DNA of 64,000 nucleotides. It comes from a virus. The position numbers were made by a program, and so were the translations under genes. The notes under the pieces are model-generated. The model was not told the DNA's origin and made no database searches. It saw only the letters and a program-made list of their open reading frames with translations. The stretch is taken from the IMG/VR virus record IMGVR_UViG_3300048921_000363, positions 22,752 through 86,751 of that record; one strand, given 5' to 3'. Within the stretch, counting starts at the first letter, position 1. Each line of letters starts with the position of its first letter. Positions 24,669 to 62,561 of this stretch are shown here, piece by piece.

Positions 24669-24934
24669 ACACTTTGTTCTTACTCATGGCTCAATACGAC
24701 GGACAGGCAGTTATCCCACTTGATCGCGTCTGCGCGGATTACATGCATTTAACAGTGGAAAAATTTAAGCGCAAACAACTAGATGGCGAAATAGATATAC
24801 CCGTTGTTCGCTTGGGCGCTAACAGTCAAAAGGCAGCGTTAGGAATTCACCTTAAGGATCTGGCGGACTACATAGATAGACAAAGGGAAAAAGCAGCCAA
24901 AGAGCAAAATTTACTAATGGGCCGTGCTGCATGA
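24665..24934 (+). CDS. PrtN-family transcriptional activator
   Basis: This 89-residue pyocin-activator PrtN family protein (LMAQYDGQAVIPLDRVCADY, then HLKDLADYIDRQREKA) is coupled to the methyltransferase by a 4-bp overlap and followed directly by a strong terminator. The same methyltransferase-PrtN-integrase order recurs at 60228-63687. It may activate phage late or excision genes; the DNA target is not evident. Confidence 0.85.
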   Translation: MNTLFLLMAQYDGQAVIPLDRVCADYMHLTVEKFKRKQLDGEIDIPVVRLGANSQKAALGIHLKDLADYIDRQREKAAKEQNLLMGRAA

Positions 24935-24960
24935 AAAAAGGGGCTGACGCCCCTTTTTTT
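24934..24960. terminator. Bidirectional terminator ending the early operon
   Basis: A GGGGC/GCCCC stem with loop TGAC is flanked by six A and seven T residues. It stops the rightward early operon and, on the other strand, the leftward DUF3892 gene whose stop lies at 24959. Confidence 0.9.
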
Positions 24961-56304: not shown

Positions 56305-56538
56305 ATGGAAATCGACATCGCCATCAACGCAAAACTGCCCCGTGCACAGGCCGAAGCCCTGCTCCAGGCACTGCGCGCTCAGTACTCGATGCAGTTCAAC
56401 GAGCACTGGTATGACGATCGCTTTCGCATGATCCCCGAGGGTTTACGGCACGGCTCGCTGCTGTCGGCCTTCCCGGTGATGGCCGCGCAAAAACGCCTGA
56501 TTGGCGCCCTTAAACACAGTCTCGGCGAAGTGAAGTAA
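56305..56538 (+). CDS. Small early phage protein
   Basis: This 77-residue protein (MEIDIAINAKLPRAQAEALL) follows GAGGTGG and lies six bases upstream of the primase gene. It is an alpha/beta fold without cysteines. I do not recognise the family; the position suggests a replication accessory. Confidence 0.65.
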   Translation: MEIDIAINAKLPRAQAEALLQALRAQYSMQFNEHWYDDRFRMIPEGLRHGSLLSAFPVMAAQKRLIGALKHSLGEVK

Positions 56539-56544
56539 GCCCCG

Positions 56545-59259
56545 ATGAACATGAAACACGATTTGCGCGCCGATATCCTGCAACGCCTTGAGTCCGACTA
56601 CGGCCTAAAGCACAAGGCCGGTAAATACATGCGCCAGGGCGAATGCCCGGCGTGCAAGAAAAAGGAGCTGTACGCCTTCCACGATGACCCGTGGATGATC
56701 CGCTGCGGTCGGGGCAAGTGCGGCCAGACCTGGCACGTCAAAGAAATCTACGAAGATCTGTTCGAAGACTGGAGCAAGCGCGCCCCAGCCAGCGAGCAAC
56801 ACCCCAGCGCCACCGCCCGTGCGTATCTGGAATTTGCCCGTGGTTTTCGGCTTGATCTGATTCAAGGCTGGTTTACGCAGGAAACGTATTTTTCCGGCGA
56901 GCTGAATGCCGGCAGCGCGACGGTGCGCTTTGCACTGGAGAAAGGCGGTTACTGGGAACGCCTGATCGACCGGCCGCACCGGTTCGGCAAGATGAAAGCG
57001 CGGTTCAAGCCAGGCGATAGCCCGCGTGGGTACTGGTGGTGCCCGCCATGTGTCGAGCTGCTGGACGTCAAAGTGCTGTGGATTGTCGAGGGCATCTTCG
57101 ACGCCATCGCTCTGGTGCATAACGGCATTGCAGCGGTGTCGGCCATGTCATCGGCCTTCTTCCCTGAAGAGTCGTTGAAAGAGCTGGCTCGGCAGCGTGG
57201 CGGCAAATTGCCCAAGCTCATTTGGGCACTGGACAACGAACCCGGGGCGCACAAATACACCAAGCGTTGGGTGCGTCAGGCGCGTGCCCTGGGTTACGAG
57301 TGCGAAGCAGCGCAGATCCCGCAATCGGACAGCCGCAAGGTCGATTGGAACGATCTGCATCAGCGCTGGGCATTCATTGACGACGATAGCGAACGTGCCG
57401 AGCAGATCGAAAAGGATCTGGCCACGGCTCGCTATCACGGCTCCTTGCTGATCGCCGAAAGCGCGTCTGAGAAAGGCGTGCTGATGTACGAGTGGCGTGA
57501 GCGCCACGAGTTTCACTTCGGCTTCGACAGCCGGCTCTACTGGTTCAAGATGGACCTGGAGAAATTCAACAAGGCCATGCAGGCGCTGGAGTCATCCGAG
57601 CGCCACGAAGACCAATTGCTGAACGAAAAGCAGCGTCGCGAAAAGGCCTTGCGCCAATGCGGTGGCGTGGTGGAAATCGCCAACTGCTACCCGCAGGCGC
57701 TGTACTTCCAGCGCAACGAAGTCACCGACGAATCCTGGTACTACTTCCGCGTCGACTTCCCGCACGACAGCGGCAGCGTGAAGAACACTTTCACCGGTGG
57801 CCAGGTCGCCGCCGCCAGCGAGTTCAAAAAGCGTCTGCTCAGCATGGCCGCCGGCGCCGTATTTACCGGCAGCGGGCAGCAGCTCGACAAGATCATGAAG
57901 GATCAGCTGTTCGGCCTGAAGACTGTCGAGACCATCGACTTCATTGGCTACAGCAAGCTGCACGGCTGCTACGTCTTTGGCGACCTCGCGGTACGCGGCG
58001 GCATCGTCAGCGTGGTCAACAAGGAGGACTTTTTCGAGTTCGGCAAGCTGCGGCTCAAGACACTGCAAAAGTCGATCGCCATGCACATTCAGCGCGACAG
58101 TAAGCAGTACCGCACTGACTGGCTCCCAATGCTGTGGCTGTGCTTCGGCGCCAAGGGCATTGTTGCCTTGGCGTTCTGGTTCGGCTCGCTCTTCGCGGAG
58201 CAGATCCGCGCGCAGTACAAGTCCTTTCCGTTCCTTGAGGTCACCGGTGAAGCCGGCGCTGGCAAGACCACGCTGCTCACTTTCCTGTGGAAACTGCTCG
58301 GCCGTGAGCATGAAGGTTTTGATCCGTCGAAATCGACCCGTGCCGGTCGGCAGCGCGCCATGGGCCAGGTCTCCAACATGCCCGTCGTGCTGATCGAGGG
58401 CGACCGCAACGAGCCAGATAAAGCGCACGCCAAGGGCTTCGACTGGGACGAACTGAAAGACTTCTACGGCGGCGGCACGCTCGGCACCAAGGGCATGAAG
58501 ACCAGTGGCAACGAGACTTACGAACCGCCGTTTCGGGGCGCGATTGCGATCAGCCAGAACGCCGATGTCAGCGCGTCAGAAGCGATCCTGACCCGGATTA
58601 TCAAATCCCACTTTGCGCGTCCGGAAGTTACCACTGAAAGCCGTGCCGCCGCTGACAACCTGAACCTGATCCCGGTCGAGCAACTGAGCCACTTCCTGTT
58701 GCTGGCCGTTCGTGCCGAGGCCCAGGTGATGGCCAAGTTCGCCGAGCGCGTGCTGGTTCATGAACAGCAACTGCGCAGGCTCAAAGAAATCCGCGTGGAG
58801 CGGATCATCAAGAACCACAGCCAGTTGATGGCTCTGGTGGATTGCCTGCGCCTGGTGTGCCCGCTCGATGACAACCACGTCGCCACGACACACCAGGCAC
58901 TGATGGTCATGGCTTTGGAGCGACAGGCTGCGATCAGCGCCGACCACCCGTTGGTTGCCGAATTCTGGGAAGTCTTCGAATACCTCGAAAGCCTGGGCGA
59001 AGGCCCGCAGGTCAACCACAGCACCGACCCGAAACTCGTCGCGATCAACCTCAACGAGTTCGCTGAAAAAGCCAGCGAGCATCGGCAGAACCTCGCCGAC
59101 CTCAAGACCTTGCGCGGGCTGCTGGTCAACAGCCGCAGCCACAAATGGCTGGAATCCAACAAGGCCGTTTACAGCGCCGTGCGCGCTTCACAGGCGGCCG
59201 GCAACGCGATGTTCAACAAACCCACCACTGTGCGCTGCTGGATTTTTCAGAGCGCGTAA
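56545..59259 (+). CDS. TOPRIM primase/helicase, replaces P2 gpA
   Basis: This 904-residue protein has a CHC2-type zinc finger (C34, C37, C54, C59), a TOPRIM domain (IVEGIFDAIALV near 180-191, acidic WALDNEPG near 227) and a helicase-like ATPase with Walker A TGEAGAGKTT near 567-576. P2 replicates by rolling circle from gpA, and no gpA-type tyrosine pair (YxxxY nuclease) is seen here. So replication is probably theta-type or primase-initiated. It is not closely similar to the prophage 1 primase. Confidence 0.85.
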   Translation: MNMKHDLRADILQRLESDYGLKHKAGKYMRQGECPACKKKELYAFHDDPWMIRCGRGKCGQTWHVKEIYEDLFEDWSKRAPASEQHPSATARAYLEFARGFRLDLIQGWFTQETYFSGELNAGSATVRFALEKGGYWERLIDRPHRFGKMKARFKPGDSPRGYWWCPPCVELLDVKVLWIVEGIFDAIALVHNGIAAVSAMSSAFFPEESLKELARQRGGKLPKLIWALDNEPGAHKYTKRWVRQARALGYECEAAQIPQSDSRKVDWNDLHQRWAFIDDDSERAEQIEKDLATARYHGSLLIAESASEKGVLMYEWRERHEFHFGFDSRLYWFKMDLEKFNKAMQALESSERHEDQLLNEKQRREKALRQCGGVVEIANCYPQALYFQRNEVTDESWYYFRVDFPHDSGSVKNTFTGGQVAAASEFKKRLLSMAAGAVFTGSGQQLDKIMKDQLFGLKTVETIDFIGYSKLHGCYVFGDLAVRGGIVSVVNKEDFFEFGKLRLKTLQKSIAMHIQRDSKQYRTDWLPMLWLCFGAKGIVALAFWFGSLFAEQIRAQYKSFPFLEVTGEAGAGKTTLLTFLWKLLGREHEGFDPSKSTRAGRQRAMGQVSNMPVVLIEGDRNEPDKAHAKGFDWDELKDFYGGGTLGTKGMKTSGNETYEPPFRGAIAISQNADVSASEAILTRIIKSHFARPEVTTESRAAADNLNLIPVEQLSHFLLLAVRAEAQVMAKFAERVLVHEQQLRRLKEIRVERIIKNHSQLMALVDCLRLVCPLDDNHVATTHQALMVMALERQAAISADHPLVAEFWEVFEYLESLGEGPQVNHSTDPKLVAINLNEFAEKASEHRQNLADLKTLRGLLVNSRSHKWLESNKAVYSAVRASQAAGNAMFNKPTTVRCWIFQSA

Positions 59260-59266
59260 ACCGCAA

Positions 59267-59284
59267 CCAGCGCTGCAACGCTGG
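59267..59284 (+). promoter_or_regulatory. CTGCAA-loop leader hairpin 1
   Basis: CCAGCG-CTGCAA-CGCTGG lies 23 bp before the next start codon, followed by AAAGGAGAGGCACCATG. The same loop with different stems recurs at 59635 and 60181. Confidence 0.7.
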
Positions 59285-59307
59285 GCACATTCCAAAGGAG
59301 AGGCACC

Positions 59308-59604
59308 ATGCAAGTACACGTGATCACCGGCGACGCCGGCACGGGAAAAACGACGAAGCTGAGATCGATCGAAGCCCAGCAACTGGCTGAAGGCAAACAG
59401 GCCGGGATCATTCATGCGGATGCGTATTCGCATCACGGCCTGCTCGGAATCATGGAAGTCAGGCTAGAGCGCGGTGAGCGGACGCTGCTTGTCGATGACT
59501 GCTCGATCAAACAAATCGATGAGGTTCTGCAGTGGCAGAAGGAGGCCGCTGGAAACGAGCAGCTTGAAGGCTTAGCGATTCACCTGGTTCGCCGCGCCGG
59601 CTAA
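59308..59604 (+). CDS. Miniature P-loop NTPase (98 residues)
   Basis: A complete Walker A (GDAGTGKTT, residues 8-16) and a Walker B (RTLLVDDCS, near residue 60) fit in only 98 residues, with the order and spacing of a minimal AAA/ASCE core lacking sensor and lid parts. The family is not recognised. It lies just after the primase-helicase, behind a CTGCAA hairpin. It might be a helicase-loading or DNA-binding accessory. Confidence 0.7.
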   Translation: MQVHVITGDAGTGKTTKLRSIEAQQLAEGKQAGIIHADAYSHHGLLGIMEVRLERGERTLLVDDCSIKQIDEVLQWQKEAAGNEQLEGLAIHLVRRAG

Positions 59605-59634
59605 ACAACGAGTTCATTCGGAAAGAAGTGGTGC

Positions 59635-59654
59635 CGAGGGGCTGCAACCCCTCG
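59635..59654 (+). promoter_or_regulatory. CTGCAA-loop leader hairpin 2
   Basis: CGAGGGG-CTGCAA-CCCCTCG, extended below a C-A mismatch by GGTG/CACC. It lies 28 bp before a start codon led by AAAGGAGAAGCACC. Confidence 0.75.
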
Positions 59655-59682
59655 ACACCGACCACCCCAAAGGAGAAGCACC

Positions 59683-59946
59683 ATGCAAGCACAAAACCCA
59701 AGTGGCAGCGGCACAGAGGCTACCACGAACGCCTTCAACGTCGGTGATGACGTGACTTTCGTGGCCGCACGCAGCACTGGGCGCAGCGTCAGTCTCAGCG
59801 TTCGCGAAGGAAAAATTGCCGGGATCAACAGCGGTATTGCGACCGTCAAGCTTCGCAATGGCCGCACCAGTATGCAGCCATTGAACAAACTCACCCGCAA
59901 GGGCGAACGCAACGCCCTAACCCGCGCATTACTGGGGGATGCCTAA
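59683..59946 (+). CDS. Hypothetical protein, possible KOW-like fold
   Basis: This 87-residue protein has a disordered N-terminus and a beta-rich middle (NVGDDVTFVAARSTGRSVSL, then GKIAGINSGIATVKLRNGRT) that reads like an SH3/KOW barrel, and a basic tail. It is preceded by hairpin 2 and overlaps the next gene by one base (TAATG). It may bind nucleic acid; this is inference. Confidence 0.6.
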   Translation: MQAQNPSGSGTEATTNAFNVGDDVTFVAARSTGRSVSLSVREGKIAGINSGIATVKLRNGRTSMQPLNKLTRKGERNALTRALLGDA

Positions 59947-60167
59947 TGCAACCCTCCACCAATTCTGTTGCACGCACACGCCCGCCCATGGCCAGCCATC
60001 GGCTTGACCTCCCCAGTTGCTGCGACATCTGCGGCAAAGCCCGATCCACCCGAAAGCACCAGGCCTGTAGCCGGATCCGACAGCAGCGCAGGTCTGCCGA
60101 GTGGGCTGAGCTGATGGCGGTACGGGCAGAAGCGAAGCAGAACAAGCCACGGCGCTACGCGCGCTGA
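59946..60167 (+). CDS. Small basic CxxC protein
   Basis: This 73-residue arginine-rich protein has CCDICGKARSTRKHQACSR, a short zinc-finger-like motif, and a basic helical tail. Its start overlaps the previous stop, and hairpin 3 follows. A possible nucleic-acid binder; family not recognised. Confidence 0.6.
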   Translation: MQPSTNSVARTRPPMASHRLDLPSCCDICGKARSTRKHQACSRIRQQRRSAEWAELMAVRAEAKQNKPRRYAR

Positions 60168-60180
60168 TTTGGATTACGGG

Positions 60181-60208
60181 GCGATGGGGAGCTGCAACTC
60201 CCCATCGC
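60181..60208 (+). promoter_or_regulatory. CTGCAA-loop leader hairpin 3
   Basis: An 11-bp perfect stem GCGATGGGGAG/CTCCCCATCGC closes the loop CTGCAA. It lies 19 bp before the methyltransferase start, followed by AAAGGAAGAAGCACC. Confidence 0.8.
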
Positions 60209-60227
60209 CAGCAAAGGAAGAAGCACC

Positions 60228-62030
60228 ATGCTCAAGCGAACACTCAAACACTTTCATTTCTGCTGCGGCCTCGGTGGCGGCGCCAAAGGTTTCAACAAAT
60301 CCAAGCCCATCGTGGGCAACATTCAAGCGCAATGGCAATGCATCGGCGGCATCGATATTGATGCGGCCGGGCTGGCCGACTTCGAGCGTTTGAGCGGAGT
60401 CAAGGGCACGCTGCTGGATCTGTTTACCCGAGATCAGTACATACGCTTCCACGGGAAAGAGCCGCCACCTGGTTGGCGTGAGGCGACAGTCGAAGATGTT
60501 CGACGTGCAGCCAACTACCAACGGCCCGACGCAGTGTTCATTTCCAGTCCGTGCAAAGGCGCGTCGGGCCTGCTGTCCGAAAAGATGAGTCTGACCCCAA
60601 AATATCAGGCGCTGAACGAACTCACGCTACGCTGCATCTGGCTGTTCGGTGAAGCCTGGAAAGACGATGCTGTTCCGCTTTTGGTCTTCGAAAACGTCCC
60701 TCGGCTGGCAACCCGTGGCCGGCACTTGCTCGACCAGATCAACAAGGTGCTGTCTCACTTCGGCTATGCCGTGGCTGAAACCACTCACGACTGCGGTGTA
60801 ATCGGCGGCTTGGCCCAGAGTCGAAAACGGTTCTTGCTGGTGGCGCGCCACATCGAGAAGGTACCGCCCTTCCTGTATGAGCCAGAAAAGAAAACCCTCA
60901 AGTCTGTCGGCTCAATCCTCGGCCGCATGCCGCTCGCCGGCGATATCGAAGCCGCCGGTCCCATGCACCGGGTTCCAGCTCTCCAATGGAAAACGTGGGT
61001 GCGTCTTGCCCTCGTCACCGCCGGCAAGGACTGGCGCAGCCTGAATGACTTAGCGATCGAGGACGGTTATCTGCGTGATCTGGTGATCGTGCCCGAGTAT
61101 CGCGCCGGCTACCTCGGCGTGCACGACTGGCAAGACACCGCCGGCACCGTCGCTGGGCGCAGCAACCCAACAAACGGCGCATTCTCGGTTGCTGATCCAC
61201 GCGCCAAAGCCGGTGCTCTGCAATATCAGCAGTACGGTGTCCGTCGCTGGGAAGAGACCAGTGGCGCGGTGATCGGCGTCAAGTCGCCCGGACAGGGAAC
61301 ATTCAGCGTTGCGGATCCTCGCCGGCCGGGCGATGGGTTCGGAAAGTACTTGGTAACGCAGTTCGACAAGGCCGCCGGAACAGTCATCGCCGGCAGCACC
61401 ACGGGGCAAGGCGCTTTTGCTGTGCAGGATCCCCGATACCATAACTGGCACCCGGCAGCGAGTAGCCGGAAGCTGGGCGTTTGCCCGTGGGATAAAACGG
61501 CTGGGACTGTTACCGGATCGCAGCAGGTTGCCAGTGGTGCATTGTCGATCGCAGATCCCCGCCCTGGCATGAAGCGCGTCAAGGGTGATGCCTACCTGAC
61601 TGGTGGCCACTATGGCGTTGTCGGCTGGAATGAACAGTGCGGTGCTGTTTCAGCCAGTGCAAAGCAGGACAACGGGCGCTGGTCGGTAGCTGACCCGCGT
61701 ATGCCGGAAGCGAACGACCGGTTGACCTGCGTGATTGAAAGTCTCGACGGCACTTGGCACCGCCCATTCACCACGCTGGAGCTGGCCGCGCTGCAAAGCC
61801 TGGTCGAACCCGAAGAACAGTTCGAGCTGGATGGACTGAGTGATCAGGCGTGGCGTGAGCGTATCGGTAACGCCGTACCACCTGACGCCGCCGAAGCCAT
61901 CGCCGATGTGATGGGTACCACGCTGTTACTCGCCGCATCTGGAGAAACCTTCATGCTCAATAGCATGCCGATCTGGGTTCGCCCGATAGCGGTAGGCCTG
62001 AGCGTGGCGCATCGGGAGACTGCGCTATGA
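60228..62030 (+). CDS. DNA (cytosine-5) methyltransferase with five internal repeats
   Basis: This 600-residue homologue of 22677-24668 has motif I CCGLGGGAKGF (12-22), catalytic Cys in SSPCKGAS (near 108), ENV (near 155), QSRKRF (near 197) and RIGNAVP (near 546). Residues about 300-500 are five repeats with core AGTVxG...GxFSVADPR; one repeat present in the prophage 1 enzyme is missing. No restriction partner is seen. It is expressed behind hairpin 3, suggesting translational control. Confidence 0.9.
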   Translation: MLKRTLKHFHFCCGLGGGAKGFNKSKPIVGNIQAQWQCIGGIDIDAAGLADFERLSGVKGTLLDLFTRDQYIRFHGKEPPPGWREATVEDVRRAANYQRPDAVFISSPCKGASGLLSEKMSLTPKYQALNELTLRCIWLFGEAWKDDAVPLLVFENVPRLATRGRHLLDQINKVLSHFGYAVAETTHDCGVIGGLAQSRKRFLLVARHIEKVPPFLYEPEKKTLKSVGSILGRMPLAGDIEAAGPMHRVPALQWKTWVRLALVTAGKDWRSLNDLAIEDGYLRDLVIVPEYRAGYLGVHDWQDTAGTVAGRSNPTNGAFSVADPRAKAGALQYQQYGVRRWEETSGAVIGVKSPGQGTFSVADPRRPGDGFGKYLVTQFDKAAGTVIAGSTTGQGAFAVQDPRYHNWHPAASSRKLGVCPWDKTAGTVTGSQQVASGALSIADPRPGMKRVKGDAYLTGGHYGVVGWNEQCGAVSASAKQDNGRWSVADPRMPEANDRLTCVIESLDGTWHRPFTTLELAALQSLVEPEEQFELDGLSDQAWRERIGNAVPPDAAEAIADVMGTTLLLAASGETFMLNSMPIWVRPIAVGLSVAHRETAL

Positions 62031-62275
62031 CTGTTTTCCTGCTGCTTTATCTGTGCACGGATGCAACCCGGACAGATTGCCAGGTGTTGCCGGCTCAACG
62101 CTGGAAGGGAGATACCGCCTACGAACAATGCCTCGACGCTATCCCCGCCCTCACCCAAGCACTGACAGTGACCAATCGGAAGCGGCACCGGTTTGTCTGC
62201 GAAGTCCAGACAGATGACGCAGGACCAACGGAAGAAGCCTCGCCGAGGTTCATTCATCAATCGTTTCGGATGTGA
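62027..62275 (+). CDS. Small protein between methyltransferase and PrtN
   Basis: This 82-residue protein has a hydrophobic N-terminus (MTVFLLLYLCTDATRTDCQV) and four cysteines. It is coupled to the methyltransferase by a 4-bp overlap and absent from the prophage 1 cassette. The hydrophobic start is too short for a sure signal peptide. Function unknown. Confidence 0.6.
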   Translation: MTVFLLLYLCTDATRTDCQVLPAQRWKGDTAYEQCLDAIPALTQALTVTNRKRHRFVCEVQTDDAGPTEEASPRFIHQSFRM

Positions 62276-62285
62276 GGGGAACATC

Positions 62286-62561
62286 ATGAACACAGCTTTC
62301 ATTCTGATGGCCCAGTACGACGGCCAGGCGATTATCTCGCTTGATCGGGTGTGTCGTGACTACTTCACTCACCTGACGCCCGACATGTTCCAGCGCAAGG
62401 TGTTGAGTGGTCAGATCAAGATCCCCATCACCCGGCTGGAGCCGAGCCAGAAGTCCGCCAAGGGCGTTCACATCGGTGACCTAGCGGCTTACCTCGATCT
62501 CCAGCGCGCCGCCGCGGTGAAAGAAAACAATCAGCTCAACGGCTTAAAACCCGCCTGTTGA
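62286..62561 (+). CDS. PrtN-family transcriptional activator
   Basis: This 91-residue PrtN-type protein (LMAQYDGQAIISLDRVCRDY, then HIGDLAAYLDLQRAAAVKEN) is homologous to 24665-24934. The ATG follows GAGGGGAAC. Its 3' end overlaps the convergent integrase 3' end by 26 bp, with no terminator between. Confidence 0.85.
   Translation: MNTAFILMAQYDGQAIISLDRVCRDYFTHLTPDMFQRKVLSGQIKIPITRLEPSQKSAKGVHIGDLAAYLDLQRAAAVKENNQLNGLKPAC

Follow-up and report, generated by a model that had tools for sequence, protein, structure and literature searches.

Genetic Organization of the Locus

The window, a stretch of 64,000 nucleotides, lies within an 86.7-kb virus record that holds a Pseudomonas prophage. This prophage is Citexvirus-like (Peduoviridae) and is related to phages Dobby and D14A. 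Its early region encodes, in order, a 77-aa protein, a 904-aa primase/helicase, a 98-aa P-loop protein, an 87-aa protein, a 73-aa zinc finger-like protein, a cytosine methyltransferase, a PrtN-like excisionase, and an integrase. The genes for the 77-aa helical protein (phrog_3967; positions 56305–56538) and the TOPRIM primase/helicase (phrog_1139; 56545–59259) are on the plus strand, the latter directly 5′ of the region containing the hairpins described below.

Three plus-strand units headed by hairpins follow. The first encodes the 98-aa P-loop protein (phrog_7795; 59308–59604), whose nSTAND/AAA matches are weak and fall below the Pfam cut-off. The second begins with the gene for the 87-aa protein (phrog_3728, function unknown; 59683–59946), which carries the cassette N terminus MQAQ...EATT; the label KOW-like previously attached to this protein was not confirmed by Pfam. 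The 73-aa protein encoded next (phrog_10699; 59946–60167) has a CX2CX8HX2C zinc finger-like motif and a basic C terminus. Because its start overlaps the stop of the 87-aa gene (TAATG), the 73-aa gene is probably translationally coupled to its upstream neighbor. The third unit encodes a 600-aa C5 cytosine DNA methyltransferase (60228–62030). The gene preceding that for the integrase (62193–62561) encodes a PrtN-like (pyocin activator) protein of the PHROG class excisionase. Elsewhere in the window, an 11-bp hairpin at 24934–24959 (AAAAAAGGGGC-TGAC-GCCCCTTTTTT) resembles a bidirectional terminator.

Three Leader Hairpins Share the Loop CTGCAA

A first-pass annotation of the sequence had reported three leader hairpins with different stems and the common loop CTGCAA, and this was confirmed by their coordinates, by a stem scan, and by comparison with 100 simulated windows. 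All three are on the plus strand and are perfectly paired, with stems of 6, 7, and 12 bp. Hairpin 1 (CCAGCG-CTGCAA-CGCTGG, 59267–59284) has its loop at 59273–59278 and is followed by the ribosome-binding site (RBS) AAAGGAG at 59294. Hairpin 2 (CGAGGGG-CTGCAA-CCCCTCG, 59635–59654; loop 59642–59647) precedes an AAAGGAG at 59669, and further outer pairs lengthen its stem beyond a C-A mismatch. Hairpin 3 (GGCGATGGGGAG-CTGCAA-CTCCCCATCGCC, 60180–60209; loop 60192–60197) is followed by the RBS AAAGGAAG at 60213. The stems originally given for hairpins 1 and 2 were correct, as was the AAAGGAG-type RBS, but hairpin 3 has one base pair more than reported and a different RBS. The distance of 19–28 bp originally given between hairpin and RBS does not hold: the gaps from stem to RBS are 9, 14, and 3 nt for hairpins 1, 2, and 3, and those from the end of the loop are 15, 21, and 15 nt.

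As a bare hexamer, CTGCAA shows no enrichment across the window (52 occurrences versus 47.5 expected). Only four occurrences are closed by a stem of at least 3 bp, namely the three hairpins and one site with a 3-bp stem. When hexaloop hairpins with stems of at least 6 bp were counted, the largest group sharing a loop within 1 kb had three members in the window but one in each of 100 order-1 Markov sequences. Folding stability was unexceptional for two of the three leaders (z = −0.87 and −1.66), and hairpin 3 had z = −3.9. None of 4227 Rfam families matched the window at gathering score, and only sub-threshold chance matches were obtained at the locus. No terminator-like sites were found on the plus strand at the hairpins; hairpin 2 gave a weak match on the minus strand only.

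The Hairpins Belong to a Family with Covarying Stems

Motif scans of viral contigs yielded at least about 100 distinct leaders among the matches listed. To avoid selection by motif, relatives were also fetched by their primase, giving 80 loci from bacterial genomes and 80 viral loci. Nine stretches from named phages, three of them found via similarity in the hairpin region, brought this set to 169 loci. The commonest hexaloops preceding an RBS in these loci were CTGCAA (93) and CGGCAA (82), and the third most frequent occurred in 13 copies located in coding sequence. At least one hairpin was present in 83 of the 169 loci and two or more in 65.

Pairing was assessed in 129 distinct sequences chosen by loop, RBS, and ATG, with no stem demanded. 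The six positions flanking the loop were Watson-Crick paired in 90, 93, 88, 81, 70, and 67% of these sequences, and permuted control loops had no comparable stem. In a set of 69 distinct hairpins, 90.8% of alignment cells were paired, compared with 60.8% after shuffling, and the covariation score was 0.675, compared with 0.149 for shuffled and at most 0.168 for slid alignments. Each of the six stem pairs had changed on both sides. The 69 hairpins were thinned by hand from an unselected list, with clearly stem-less matches dropped, so the paired percentage is somewhat flattering and the unselected figures are the cleaner measure. Covariation had originally been claimed from the three window hairpins; three unrelated stems are no evidence by themselves, but the comparative set does show it. 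Single internal mispairs, read in the mRNA sense, comprised 18 A-C and 10 G-U. Because G-U is not preferred, the mispairs do not demonstrate selection on pairing in mRNA.

The idea that host genes also use the motif was rejected: a covariance model searched against eight host genomes gave best matches that appeared to be on the prophage contigs, although the model was weak and few candidates were scored. The hairpins are a real family in the Citexvirus-like phages of Pseudomonas. The proposal of a functional RNA element, which would have been refuted had no further copies been found upstream of phage genes, has withstood this search: many copies precede phage genes, and their stems covary strongly.

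The Hairpins Are Tied to Translation Starts

Strong CNGCAA hairpins (stem of at least 6 bp) were then sought without requiring an RBS. Of 88 distinct coding-strand hairpins, 87 have an RBS-like site and a start codon after them; a strict rule identified 83 of these, and reading of the sequences the other four. Four hairpins, all from one lineage, lie on the opposite strand, with the coding-strand loop TTGCAG. The distance to the RBS varies little (quartiles 10–15 nt, S.D. 4), whereas that to the upstream stop codon varies widely (quartiles 6–26 nt, S.D. 18), which links the element to translation starts. The end of the loop is mostly 13–24 nt 5′ of the RBS.

The hairpin, RBS, and first codons (MQA/V.QPQGG.AEATT) are found joined to unrelated proteins, including KOW-like, Arc-like, and zinc finger proteins and others; examples are the junction at 59683–59730 of the window and the leaders of loci L239, L274, L378, L379, and L384. 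Judged from these sequences, it is as if the leader were a junction at which gene cassettes are swapped.

Hairpins of One Phage Share a Loop and Change It Together

The loop is not strictly invariant, as had been thought from the window, but is C-N-GCAA across relatives. In all 65 loci with two or more strictly scored hairpins, one loop is used throughout (CTGCAA in 32, CGGCAA in 32, and CAGCAA in one). Under strict scoring all hairpins of P. aeruginosa phages have CGGCAA; looser scoring revealed a few exceptions. In a P. aeruginosa-type lineage one CTGCAA hairpin accompanies those with CGGCAA, and AGGCAA and CGACAA were each seen as a single loop. The lone CTGCAA hairpin, with the RBS GATAGGAG, was seen among CGGCAA hairpins in loci L373, L382, L460, L487, L570, and L598, and L382 also has the AGGCAA loop. 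A second set, fetched by motif and overlapping the first, was uniform in 125 of 129 loci, and the four exceptions carry the lone CTGCAA hairpin of the P. aeruginosa lineage. Across 598 loci, leaders with different stems shared a loop of at least 5 nt within one locus for CGGCAA (75 loci), CTGCAA (51), and CAGCAA (one), and no other such loop recurred in any single locus.

A tree of the primase has 11 changes of the loop label, of which at least 8–9 fall on supported branches. In seven of seven independent contrasts, the first and last hairpins of a phage switched together (p = 0.016). Orthologous leaders of sister phages with different loops have stems that are 71% identical; the stems of leaders within one phage are 44% identical, yet their loops agree. 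An extreme case is provided by two loci, both from P. citronellolis genomes (L268 and L262), in which orthologous leaders have identical 24-nt stems and the loops CAGCAA and CGGCAA, respectively. Gene conversion between leaders predicts the opposite pattern, and on this comparison of stems and loops it appears an unlikely cause of the uniformity. Some of the contrasts could reflect transfer of the entire region as a block, but this would not account for orthologous stems in which every loop differs.

In relatives lacking the motif, one hairpin often persists at the position of the 87-aa gene, with loops such as TTGCAG, TGGCAC, TTGCAC, or TTGGCC, which looks like loss of the constraint on the loop. 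Seven motif-less prophages (L246, L248, L253, L260, L264, L267, and L363) have a single hairpin with the loop TTGCAG, the exact reverse complement of CTGCAA; the sequences suggest inversion of the loop at the hairpin.

Candidates for the Proposed Loop-reading Factor

The loop type is not bound to the host, as exemplified by P. citronellolis prophages with either CGGCAA or CAGCAA. As the loop follows the phage rather than the host, we infer that the reader is a phage-encoded protein; it remains unidentified, and there are no binding data. The suggestion that a protein or small RNA reads the loop gains from the uniformity and concerted switching of base 2, which had not been foreseen, but a small RNA encoded nearby was not borne out.

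The gene family most associated with the hairpins is that of the 73-aa zinc finger, present in 60 of 78 loci with hairpins and 26 of 68 without. This protein was rejected as the reader because its gene is missing from two hairpin-bearing phage records of 40 and 37 kb. No match to it was found in the PDB by sequence or fold. The 77-aa phrog_3967 protein is a weak candidate, whose gene follows the loops slightly better than other genes do. Its tree requires eight loop changes, compared with 11 for the primase tree, and six hairpin gains or losses, compared with 10, but the protein is nearly identical in some phages with T and G loops and was likewise rejected. Its structure was modeled confidently, and no significant fold match was obtained. 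Residue-level screens for positions predicting the loop revealed nothing that stood out. Base pairing between loops (kissing), or between UGCA and the AUGCAA start region, was also ruled out, as it is impossible for CGGCAA and CAGCAA loops, in phages where the starts are also AUGCA.

Comparison with Known Systems

In lambdoid phages, antitermination by N depends on boxB hairpins, whose phage-specific loops are read by phage-specific RNA-binding peptides. The boxB hairpin sits at nut sites together with boxA and not before each RBS, and the likeness to the present hairpins, with phage-specific loops and putative phage-specific readers, is by analogy only.

In phage Mu, the small zinc finger protein Com recognizes a hexaloop ahead of a modification gene, mom, and acts as a translational activator (PMC6483171). 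Hairpin 3 likewise presents a six-residue loop 5′ of the start of a DNA modification gene, here that of the C5 methyltransferase, and the two systems have in common a loop sequence that is read, here by inference, a free stem sequence, and a fixed closing pair (PMC6483171). However, Com controls one gene, whereas the present phages have two to five hairpins each, the others preceding unrelated genes. The Mu motif CC(N)2–3GAG is not met by CNGCAA. The local zinc finger, CX2CX8HX2C, differs from Com in its zinc-binding pattern, lacks any confident Pfam match, and is missing in some phages that carry hairpins; neither it nor its relatives, the only proteins scanned, matched the Pfam Com family.

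The SAS/ESAS elements of cluster K mycobacteriophages are repeated at the starts of many non-structural genes and have no known function (PMC3203893). They too include an inverted repeat just upstream of starts, with a consensus that differs between phage subclusters, but ESAS hold their sequence information in the 17-bp arms and have a variable spacer (PMC3203893), whereas in the present hairpins it is the loop that is fixed and the arms that vary. Neither the 13-bp SAS start sequence GGGATAGGAGCCC nor the conserved 17-bp arms were met, the start context here being AAAGGAGAAGCACCATG. By analogy, the hairpins would work most like Mu Com/mom in a genome layout resembling that of ESAS, and by the features tested they are a member of neither system. 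No description of these hairpins was found in open-access papers, and Rfam has no family for them.

Discussion

We consider it probable that the hairpins are translational operators in 5′ leaders, the loop being read by a phage-specific factor, which would most likely be a small phage RNA-binding protein. The location and strand of the hairpins, their covariation, the conservation of the loop, its uniformity within each phage, and its concerted switching are direct observations. What we infer, without expression or binding data, is that recognition takes place on the RNA, that a phage protein does the reading, and that translation is what responds. The operators would head independently translated early and accessory genes of Citexvirus-like phages, with the stem merely presenting the hexaloop C-N-G-C-A-A. 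A phage-specific trans-acting factor would recognize the loop, including base 2, and would set the translation of the whole gene set together. As the RBS is outside the hairpin, we lean toward activation rather than repression, but the sign of regulation is open. The interpretation given in the first-pass annotation is supported overall, although it is undetermined which molecule reads the loop and in which direction it regulates.

The hairpins might instead act purely in cis on mRNA stability or processing, each protecting its cistron or guiding cleavage by a host RNase with no loop-specific reader. Strong stems of varying length and free sequence just before each RBS are compatible with this, but the loop should then be free as well, whereas C1, G3, C4, A5, and A6 hardly vary, and base 2 has a single identity within each phage and switches in concert. 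We regard this explanation as unlikely.

We think it improbable, too, that the element acts primarily as DNA, as a hairpin in single-stranded phage DNA that serves primase priming or cassette exchange and whose loop is read by a DNA-binding protein. A universal phage primase does adjoin the hairpins, the fusion of leaders and first codons (MQA.QPQGG) to unrelated proteins looks as if cassettes had been shuffled, A-C and G-U mispairs occur at roughly equal frequency, and hairpin-templated DNA repair could also keep the arms complementary. Against these points stand the strict coding-strand orientation and a spacing tied to the RBS rather than the upstream stop, and the primase tree tracks the loop type no better than do other genes. 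A role of the hairpins in DNA is not excluded.

Base-specific co-change would also be expected if a small antisense RNA (UUGCNG) paired with the loop and changed along with it. In aligned sister phages with different loops, however, the compensated TTGC[A/C/T]G sites were the hairpin loops themselves; the few others within ∼9 kb of the primase were isolated and non-recurring, and GCAA never varies, although a pairing system would allow it to change. This makes an antisense reader very unlikely. Descent of functionless copies from one duplicated leader, or chance, would account for the common RBS context and first codons but can be practically dismissed, as stems have diverged yet remain paired while loops have not diverged, loop changes are concerted, and simulation yields no such group.

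The translational operator may be extended, more tentatively, to a phage-wide regulon, in which one phage protein would read C-N-GCAA ahead of all those early or accessory genes in the cassette region that are translated independently. We give this reading slightly less than even odds. The specificity for base 2 (T, G, or A) would then have switched about ten times, giving orthogonal pairs of reader and loop that insulate co-resident prophages from one another.

The hairpins are an apparently undescribed structured RNA family in which the comparative case for a sequence-specific reader is unusually clean. If that reader is found, the family would provide several mutually orthogonal RNA-protein pairs. 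The shared loop could be used to assign cassette genes to a common regulon, and it opens the coordination of accessory genes in temperate Pseudomonas phages to direct tests, for which isolated phages such as Dobby can also serve.
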